Below are positions 1 through 9,711 of a stretch of 64,000 bases of DNA, piece by piece. The DNA is taken from the NCBI GenBank assembly GCA_964035015.1, contig OZ035998.1:12982143-13046142 (forward strand), in the 5' to 3' direction. The translations under genes and the position numbers were made by a program. Each line of letters begins with the position of its first letter. Position 1 is the stretch's first letter. This DNA comes from Corallium rubrum (Eukaryota; Cnidaria; Anthozoa; Scleralcyonacea; Coralliidae). The notes under the pieces are model-generated. The model was not told where the DNA came from, ran no database searches, and worked only from the letters and a program-made list of their open reading frames with translations.

Positions 1-57
1 GACCAGTGTAAGAGACACAGCTGACGTCATCAAGAGCGTACCTTATCATTTGGATGT
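1..57 (+). repeat. Left terminal inverted repeat
   Basis: Identical over 57 bases to the reverse complement of 9655-9711. It contains the palindrome TGACGTCA at 22-29, a consensus CREB/ATF site. It may extend left of the window. Confidence 0.93.
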
Positions 58-324
58 GTATATATATATATATATATATATATATATATATATATATATA
101 TATATATATATATATATATATATATATATATATATATATATATATATATATATATATATATATATATATATATATATATATATATATATATATATATACA
201 TATGTATATATATATGTATATATATATGTATATATATATATGTATATATATATATATATATATATATATATATATATATATATATATATATATATATATA
301 TATATATATATATATATATATATA
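58..324. repeat. (TA)n microsatellite, left end of transposon
   Basis: About 265 bases of almost pure TA, with a few TATG/TACA variants near 198-240. It lies between the TIR and the octamer array and is mirrored at 9548-9645. Confidence 0.95.
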
Positions 325-462
325 GATCGCTAGATCGCTAGATCGCTGGATCTCTAGATCTCTGGATCGCTGGATCTTTGGATCTCTAGATCTCTGGATC
401 GCTGGATCTTTAGATCTGTGGATCTCTGGATCGCTGAACCCCCAGATCGCTGGATCTTTAGA
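325..462 (+). repeat. Left subterminal octamer array (GATCNYTR)n
   Basis: About 17 consecutive 8-bp units of the form GATC(G/T)(C/T)T(A/G), such as GATCGCTG, GATCTCTA and GATCTTTG, with one degenerate unit near 436. Repeated short motifs just inside a TIR are commonly transposase-binding sites; that role is inferred here. Confidence 0.85.
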
Positions 463-533
463 ATCATTTTATCAAGGGCGTGACCGCGTGAGGAGAGTGA
501 GGAGAGGACTTAGTACGACTATTATTATCCAAC

Positions 534-1010
534 ATGGCGTTCTTGAATGTTGCGATAAAGACAGCTTGTACGATATCTATTTTATTAAACCTTATACTCG
601 CTGTTCCGACGACTGGGGAAGAACGTGGTATTTCTCAAATCTCAAAGAGGTTTATTCGACATGTATTGTCGTGTTTGAACAAATCTCCCGACGTTGTGCA
701 TTTCATGTCTCCTGTCGTTTTAAGCTACGAGAGTTTTACTTTTGGCCGGACTGACAATCCCATTGGTGGAGTATTTTACCTAGAACCTCAGGGATTATTG
801 GTTGAAGATTTGATAATTTGGGATCCTATGCTGCTTTTTCCTCGTTTGCCTTTAAATTGTCCAACTTGTTCTACGTCAGAACGTCTCAAAGCGACAACTA
901 GGTGGAAGGACGGAGAAAAGCAGCATGATTTACCAAGAAAGATTTATGGCCTAAAAAACGACGTGCTTGTTGTTAGCAGAGTATATTCTTGTCTTATAGA
1001 CATCAGATAA
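534..1010 (+). CDS. N-terminal part of the transposase (frame 1)
   Basis: 158 codons beginning with an ATG in good context (AACATGG). The C-terminal half looks like real coding sequence: a tryptophan-rich stretch (IIWDPMLLFP) and a CPTC knuckle, then a basic segment leading to VVSRVYSC. The next frame, open from 976, continues the same kind of sequence (IIAHDPDILSQL), so this is best read as the start of the downstream 900-codon protein. The two parts are separated by a frame change near 985-1000 that could be a 1-2 base indel or an unrecognised short intron. The hydrophobic first 20 residues resemble a signal peptide, but I would not trust that in a transposase. Confidence 0.6.
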   Translation: MAFLNVAIKTACTISILLNLILAVPTTGEERGISQISKRFIRHVLSCLNKSPDVVHFMSPVVLSYESFTFGRTDNPIGGVFYLEPQGLLVEDLIIWDPMLLFPRLPLNCPTCSTSERLKATTRWKDGEKQHDLPRKIYGLKNDVLVVSRVYSCLIDIR

Positions 1011-9106: not shown

Positions 9107-9540
9107 ATCCAGAGATCTAGCGATCCAGAGATCCAAGCGATCCAGAGATCTAGCGATCCAGCGATCCAGAGATCTAAAGATCCAGCGATCCAGAGATCTA
9201 GAGATCCAGCGATCCAGAGATCTAAAGATCCAGCGATCTAAAGATCTAAAGATCCAGCGATCCAGAGATCTAGAGATCCAGCGATCTAGCGATCCAGCGA
9301 TCCAGAGATCTAAAGATCTAGCGATCCAGCGATCCAGAGATCTAAAGATCTAGCGATCCAGCGATCCACAGATCTAAAGATCTAGCGATCCAGCGATCCA
9401 GAGATCTAAAGATCCAGCGATCCAGAGATCTAGAGATCCAGCGATCTAGCGATCTAGAGATCCAGCGATCCAGAGATCTAAAGATCCAGCGATCCAGAGA
9501 TCTAAAGATCCAGCAATCTAAAGATCTAGCGATCCTGCAG
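9107..9540 (-). repeat. Right subterminal octamer array
   Basis: About 54 units of the same 8-bp repeat in inverted orientation (TCCAGAGA, TCTAGCGA, TCTAAAGA and similar). It is three times longer than the left array. It starts about 110 bp upstream of the ATPase start codon, so it also occupies that gene's promoter region. Confidence 0.85.
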
Positions 9541-9547
9541 CTCAGAG

Positions 9548-9645
9548 ATATATATATATATATATATATATATATATATATATATATATATATATCAATA
9601 TCATATATATATATATATATATATATATATATATATATATATATA
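9548..9645. repeat. (TA)n microsatellite, right end of transposon
   Basis: TA repeats interrupted by TCAATATCA near 9595-9603. Counterpart of 58-324. Confidence 0.93.
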
Positions 9646-9654
9646 AACATATAT

Positions 9655-9711
9655 ACATCCAAATGATAAGGTACGCTCTTGATGACGTCAGCTGTGTCTC
9701 TTACACTGGTC
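9655..9711 (-). repeat. Right terminal inverted repeat
   Basis: Exact inverted copy of 1-57, with TGACGTCA at 9683-9690. Unique flanking DNA follows from 9712. Confidence 0.93.

Follow-up and report, generated by a model that had tools for sequence, protein, structure and literature searches.

A DNA transposon of Corallium rubrum that pairs a DDE-OTU-CXC transposase with a DUF3987-type ATPase

The window analysed here is a stretch of 64,000 nucleotides from the genome of the anthozoan Corallium rubrum (contig OZ035998.1 of assembly GCA_964035015.1, here C8:12982143-13046142). It starts inside a mobile element, which matches in the host genome delimit at 9,725 bp, from window position -6 to 9718 (C8:12982136-12991860). 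Two genes within it point towards each other: one encodes a transposase that joins a DDE core, an OTU domain and a CXC domain, the other a P-loop ATPase of the DUF3987 type. An earlier note on the window had described these parts as one large transposon, and the analysis reported here follows up that description.

Architecture of the element

The features of the window copy are listed by window position, with the strand in brackets where there is one.

1..57 (+): left terminal inverted repeat (TIR), inner 57 of 64 bp; the outer 7 precede the first base of the window
59..324: left TA tract
~325..462 (+): left GATC octamer array, 16 GATC sites
534..3694 (+): transposase gene, two open reading frames (ORFs); frame broken near 1000 in the window copy
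534..608 (+): signal-peptide-like hydrophobic N-terminus
1091..2158 (+): RNase H-like DDE core, predicted fold of ISCth4/IS256 type; D (1415), D (1631) and E (2030) with an intervening DxxH (positions worked out by hand from residues of the relative P0032)
2585..3121 (+): OTU cysteine protease-like domain, Cys codon at 2675
3188..3313 (+): CXC domain, MSL2 type
5970..6380 (-): ATPase exon 2, winged-helix-like domain (weak)
6381..7887 (-): ATPase intron, GT-AG, read from the sequence; relatives agree
6630..7335: hairpin inside the ATPase intron, 346-bp arms
7888..8995 (-): ATPase exon 1, DUF3987; reading frame disrupted immediately ahead of the splice site in the window copy
8561..8584 (-): Walker B, LLCVDEAY
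8717..8743 (-): Walker A, APSGAGKTP
~9107..9535 (-): right GATC octamer array, mirrored; 52 GATC sites in 9091-9560
9548..9655: right TA tract
9655..9718 (-): right TIR, 64 bp

The TIRs had been described as perfect over 57 bp. They are indeed perfect in the window copy, and because the genome adds 7 matching bases beyond each end of this stretch, their true length is 64 bp (starting GGTTCATGACCAGTG / GGTTCATGACCAGTGTAAG) and the element extends 7 bp further on each side, with GG..CC termini. The 21-base TIR start, at up to 3 mismatches, has 2 matches against 0.00 expected, and a 35-base TIR pattern at the same tolerance matches 16 times in the genome searched (474 Mb, 312 contigs), its reversed control not once. 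The mirrored TA tracts and octamer arrays were likewise located at both ends: the GATC units, mostly GATC[GT][CT]T[AG], are oriented alike relative to each end, and the genes start about 70-110 bp interior to them. Outside the arrays the GATC-N4-GATC repeat has one further site in the window, at 46797. Imperfect inverted repeats lie between the two genes (4370-4701, 5253-5709 and 3805-3841).

Copies in the host genome

Five long copies are present, namely the window copy on C8 and those on C61, C79, C13 and C82. All five carry the transposase and both ATPase exons in the same convergent layout, with gene regions 98.3-99.6% identical to the C79 copy (blocks above 1 kb); in the window copy both genes are frame-broken. 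TA tracts occur in all five and in a 317-bp derivative on C23, which consists of TIRs and TA tract only and lacks either gene. Both ends were located for five elements, the window copy, C61 (9,768 bp), C79 (9,400 bp), C82 (14,448 bp, with extra sequence) and the C23 derivative; perfect TIRs span 64 bp in two of them and 55 bp in three. An exact target site duplication (TSD) of 8 bp, the constant duplication that the earlier note had proposed as a check, flanks four of the five (CACTTTTC, CATCTTGA, AAAAGAAG and ACTTATTC) and is imperfect at the window copy (AAACTTTG/AAACTTGT). The C13 copy has two right ends, and its left TIR was not found. Single TIR ends at C23:11271727 and C8:40536582 have no gene match within the 10 kb searched, and a further single end lies at C37:12956528.

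The transposase

In the relative P0032, 98% identical to the window copy, the transposase is one protein of 1,058 aa that joins DDE core, OTU and CXC domain. Taken alone, the window transposase scores under the family cut-off for both OTU (E 0.0022) and DDE (E 0.022), and both assignments become clearer with a profile of relatives and the predicted fold. D295 is conserved in 43/43 spanning relatives, and D367, D388, H391 and E500 in 44/44. A putative DDE triad, placed by position, with C/DxxH between its second D and the E carries the signature of the C/DxxH clade, and the core is predicted to adopt an IS256-type RNase H fold. By predicted fold ISCth4 is the best transposase match, with integrases ranking far lower; Pfam MULE is matched weakly, by 2 of 44 relatives at E up to 0.1 (best 0.018). 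The OTU fold holds a candidate catalytic Cys and His, and the domain is a predicted deubiquitinase.

The N-terminus of this protein is curious in its own right. An 11-residue hydrophobic stretch is found in all 35 near-complete transposase N-termini (of 90 matches), in 24% of 4,500 internal windows and in 7/39 ATPase N-termini. A strict signal-peptide rule is satisfied at the first Met by 27/35 transposases versus 18/478 internal Mets, and at any Met within 90 residues by 31/35 transposases and 11/39 ATPases. Such a signal-like start is odd for a nuclear enzyme.

The ATPase

The second gene was rightly assigned to the DUF3987 type. The window protein matches this family (PF13148) at E 7.6e-22, with 78.4 bits against a gathering cut-off of 27, and all 32 aligned relatives match it at E up to 0.1. 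The Walker A lysine K91 (31/31 spanning relatives) and the Walker B residues D141 and E142 (32/32) are conserved; in one member, P0030, most of the remaining Walker A residues are gone. The junction of exons 1 and 2 is supported by the relatives P0021 and P0135. A sequence search against the PDB returned no match for the ATPase; its predicted core is MCM-like, as all 50 fold matches listed are MCM entries, and its matches in phage are helicase and primase families. When exon 1 is compared with a relative on C1, nonsynonymous divergence (dN) is 0.16 and synonymous divergence (dS) a saturated 3.2 over 360 codons; the ratio of 0.05 speaks for purifying selection over a long time, even if the copy on C1 is in decay. 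For the recent copies the ratios range from 0.09 to 0.28 on too few differences to judge, and one copy was not computable owing to a stop.

The hairpin inside the intron has arms that are 94% complementary around a 14-bp loop and is kept in all five long copies; it is either an insertion, folded back on itself, that predates the burst of copies, or a part of the element.

Coupling of the two genes across the genome

The strongest evidence that the two genes form a unit comes from their distant relatives. A transposase query returned 51 matching places, merged to 39 loci (the five long copies, one extra C13 fragment and 33 others); loci beyond the window element's family are 32-68% identical. 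A query with ATPase exon 1 gave 84 matches, merged to 64 loci. An ATPase lies within 20 kb of 31 of the 39 transposase loci, in convergent (16), divergent (10) or same-strand (5) orientation, and of 25 of the 33 that remain when the six loci of the window element's family are set aside. Random placement couples a mean of 0.21 loci (2,000 runs, maximum 3), and placement restricted to a locus's own contig couples 3.6 on average and at most 11, where contigs of unrecorded extent were taken too short, which favours chance. A chance neighbourhood of the genes was rejected on these figures, and the coupling is old rather than a chance capture. Independent families number fewer than 31, since some coupled loci are copies of one family, as are C12 and C25 (99% alike over 10 kb). 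As so many distant relatives keep the pair adjacent, the two enzymes probably cooperate, and the view that the parts belong together as one mobile element is borne out both by this coupling and by the five long copies.

Two side observations belong here. Seven of the 39 transposase loci share one 3-Mb contig, C82, perhaps a transposon-rich region. Further, P0091, a gene model of Desmophyllum pertusum, runs from OTU-CXC sequence of the transposase into the tail of an ATPase and a winged-helix-like part (E 3.9e-8 in a set of 187 proteins); it hints at neighbourhood and may be an annotation chimera.

The earlier note had named two observations that would speak against a unit, copies with these TIRs that lack one gene and either gene residing without these TIRs. 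None of the five long copies lacks a gene, and the 317-bp derivative lacks both. A diverged end at C1:70207075 comes closest to the former: here a related TIR and GATC octamers are followed, just inside, by an ATPase 73-74% identical to that of the window, with a damaged Walker B, and no transposase match was found in the 20 kb searched, nor nearby among the genome-wide transposase matches. The latter literally occurs, because diverged subfamilies carry other ends, and in these the genes are mostly still paired. At C82:701142 a related TIR (3 mismatches) adjoins the transposase of 68% identity and there is an ATPase at 692050, and at C32:5688984 a TIR-like end with 38 octamer pairs has no gene match in 20 kb. 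At the C15 locus, whose transposase reaches 44% identity in the piece that matches best, 9-mer GGATCGTTT arrays of 38 and 22 copies (L031/L032) are mirrored outside both genes, at C15:15701443-15701785 and 15714198-15714399; a TIR outside these arrays was looked for and not found. An 18/27-bp array precedes the transposase on C265, and elements of the C12/C25 subfamily have TIRs of 261 bp that are 93.5% alike, and no arrays. Short-repeat arrays in mirrored or terminal position are therefore common without being universal.

How might the element move?

Our preferred reading, held tentatively and at somewhat less than an even chance, is that of a recently active two-gene DNA transposon with IS256-like strand transfer, an MCM-like ring ATPase for replication or repair, and protection by the OTU domain. 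The TIRs, the 8-bp duplications, several near-identical copies, the conservation of likely catalytic residues and the pairing of both genes in most of the strongly diverged relatives are observed; the mechanism is inferred. The IS256-like DDE enzyme would bind the TIRs, perhaps also the subterminal arrays, and perform strand transfer. The DUF3987 ATPase would form an MCM-like ring, be recruited to the element ends through either its winged-helix-like domain or the transposase, and unwind DNA there, after which the strand-transfer intermediate would be replicated (copy-out/paste-in) or repaired. The OTU domain may shield the transposition proteins from ubiquitin-dependent removal or modulate repair signalling, which we propose because the same roles have been proposed for Helitrons and Ginger1. 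In copy-out/paste-in transposition, the mode of the nearest fold relative, figure-eight intermediates must become double-stranded circles, for which an extract of PMC7780238 gives host replication factors as the proposed agents; an element-coded helicase would fit that step. Replication-coupled transposition is a plausible inference. The bolder form, a eukaryotic transposon with a replication step of its own, whose IS256-like copy-out intermediate would be copied by its own DUF3987/MCM-like initiator-helicase loaded at iteron-like end arrays, seems to us possible and on balance doubtful.

Several results weigh against these ideas. Between two recent transposase copies, compared across 905 codons, dN is 0.0093 and dS 0.0144, which gives little indication of constraint, and the transposase frame is broken in four of the five long copies. 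The likeness to ISCth4 would also suit cut-and-paste relatives of the same clade. The winged-helix reading of exon 2 is weak, with Penicillinase_R below its cut-off (E 0.0065) and a model pLDDT mostly under 50. Repeat arrays are missing from the C12/C25 subfamily, and the ends seen at C1, C32 and C15 have no TA tract next to them, although the C15 locus contains a TA run internally. Not every relative thus has an origin-like end, and the TA tract was rejected as a conserved functional part. Coupling, too, is incomplete: the 20 kb around eight transposase loci hold no ATPase (C233, C166, C240, C161, C22, C52:6593375, C82:2804192 and C1:77556120, where the last has one 23 kb away), and no transposase was detected at this range from 33 of the 64 ATPase loci, in a search that scored 43 of 257 transposase candidates.

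What else could the ATPase be doing? The earlier note had called the element cut-and-paste, which is not supported as stated: the nearest fold, ISCth4, belongs to copy-out/paste-in transposition, although hAT/MuDR-type enzymes share the signature. In a cut-and-paste element the ATPase would be a regulator of target choice or of the transpososome like MuB, TnsC or IstB rather than a helicase. AAA+ partners of bacterial DDE transposases act in this way, hAT, P and MuDR, which belong to the clade, move by cut-and-paste, and coupling without fixed gene order suits a partner protein; the listed fold matches, all of them MCM entries, and the helicase and primase families matched in phage speak against it, and we consider it rather unlikely. 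A role of the ATPase in repair after excision or in gap filling, rather than in initiation, would agree with the accessory helicases or nucleases of the Kolobok and Academ lineages and with the action on repair proposed for OTU/Ulp1 domains (PMC2836005, in extract); the fusion of prokaryotic DUF3987 ATPases to primases, described in the part consulted of PMC5862659, points to replication, and we regard such a repair role as improbable.

More remote are the readings that deny a partnership or a transposon. An ATPase that is a passenger, joined by chance or nested insertion, could draw on the ATPase loci without a detected transposase and on C1 with its end and ATPase only; the observed coupling, the exon 1 ratio and the uniform layout of the five copies have largely refuted it, and very little weight remains on it. 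Slighter still is the case for a remnant of a virus-like or plasmid-like element. Its replication-type ATPase and iteron-like arrays might suggest one; the TIRs, the 8-bp TSDs and the DDE enzyme speak against it. Phage records yielded no match to the transposase, and neither protein was matched in viral contigs or prokaryote genomes by scans that reach only near relatives, being built on few short peptide patterns. The list of ORFs shows no other conspicuous gene, though no search aimed at capsid genes was made.

What is documented here is that a DDE transposase and a replication ATPase of prokaryotic type have long been partners in an animal genome, and that this partnership is conserved. Should the ATPase take part in transposition, the element would be a eukaryotic example, open to testing, of transposition linked to replication that the element itself encodes. 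Recent copies, with gene blocks 98-99.6% alike and intact target duplications, make the system experimentally approachable.

Other features of the window

Beyond the element, long gag- and pol-like ORFs at 28853-33618 resemble a Gypsy-type LTR retrotransposon, and several Penelope-like ORFs, some with GIY-YIG-like ends, lie at 41580-46593 and 58856-61120 (all named by eye); one Penelope-like pair is nearly identical on opposite strands. A 35-bp tandem array of 37 copies with 94% matches occupies 47044-48356. No match to Rfam was found.

Relation to known systems

Eleven protein matches carry organism names (seven transposases, four ATPases; most matches are nameless): Desmophyllum, Acropora, Dendronephthya, Paramuricea, Actinia, Exaiptasia and Pocillopora, all cnidarians. 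In the open-access literature searched (titles and abstract beginnings), where ten papers mention DUF3987, neither a DUF3987 protein in a eukaryotic transposon nor the transposase-DUF3987 pair is described, and an earlier description, for instance in Repbase, may exist; 'DUF6729' has no match in open-access literature.

MuDR/MULE elements, the eukaryotic kin of the IS256 family, share with ours the RNase H-like core and the DDE + C/DxxH signature, at a sequence similarity too weak for Pfam MULE. Their TSDs measure about 8-11 bp, a range into which the 8 bp found here fits, as it does for hAT and P. Zisupton, likened by description only, also combines an 8-nt TSD with a ubiquitin-like protease domain, which is Ulp1 rather than OTU and encoded in a single gene. 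AcademH is likewise a DDE transposon with a helicase, of superfamily 2, and has a TSD of 9 or 10 bp rather than 8.

The remaining comparisons draw on extracts of the published sources, among them PMC9587614 and PMC9741609. The C/DxxH motif is common to a clade including hAT, P and MuDR (PMC10045372), and the same extract cites a paper on one AAA+ partner ATPase. Kolobok, Dada and IS256 also belong to this clade. ISCth4 shares the core and the signature; it differs in having no OTU or CXC domain, and the excerpts consulted for it describe no ATPase partner. KolobokH and Kolobok-1_CCri resemble the element in the C/DxxH signature, in RR..YY termini (here GG..CC) and in an accessory helicase; this helicase is RecQ, in one case on the complementary strand, rather than DUF3987, and since the Kolobok TSD is TTAA and ours a variable 8 bp, identity with Kolobok was rejected. 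Ginger1, with many members in Hydra, also joins a DDE transposase to a C-terminal OTU or Ulp1 domain (PMC2836005), and Helitrons carry OTU and VTD domains, so a deubiquitinase in a transposon is not unusual. Ginger1 has a retroviral-integrase-like core and a 4-bp TSD (PMC10045372), no ATPase gene is described in that extract, and as a direct parent it was rejected on predicted fold.

The ATPase is closest in kind to the prokaryotic DUF3987 primase-helicases PrimQH and All3500, of which PrimQH ends in a winged helix (extract of PMC5862659); it differs from both in lacking a primase domain, in its animal host and in its partner, a transposase. If it acts in transposition, it would provide a setting for this family, which the literature found treats in bacteria, archaea and phages. 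That an ATPase accompanies the transposase is not in itself unusual, given KolobokH and AcademH; its kind and the long-kept coupling are. Deubiquitinase domains and accessory helicases being already known, what appears new, against the literature searched, is the DUF3987-type ATPase as a standing transposon partner, in an element that probably belongs to a diverse, superfamily-level group.
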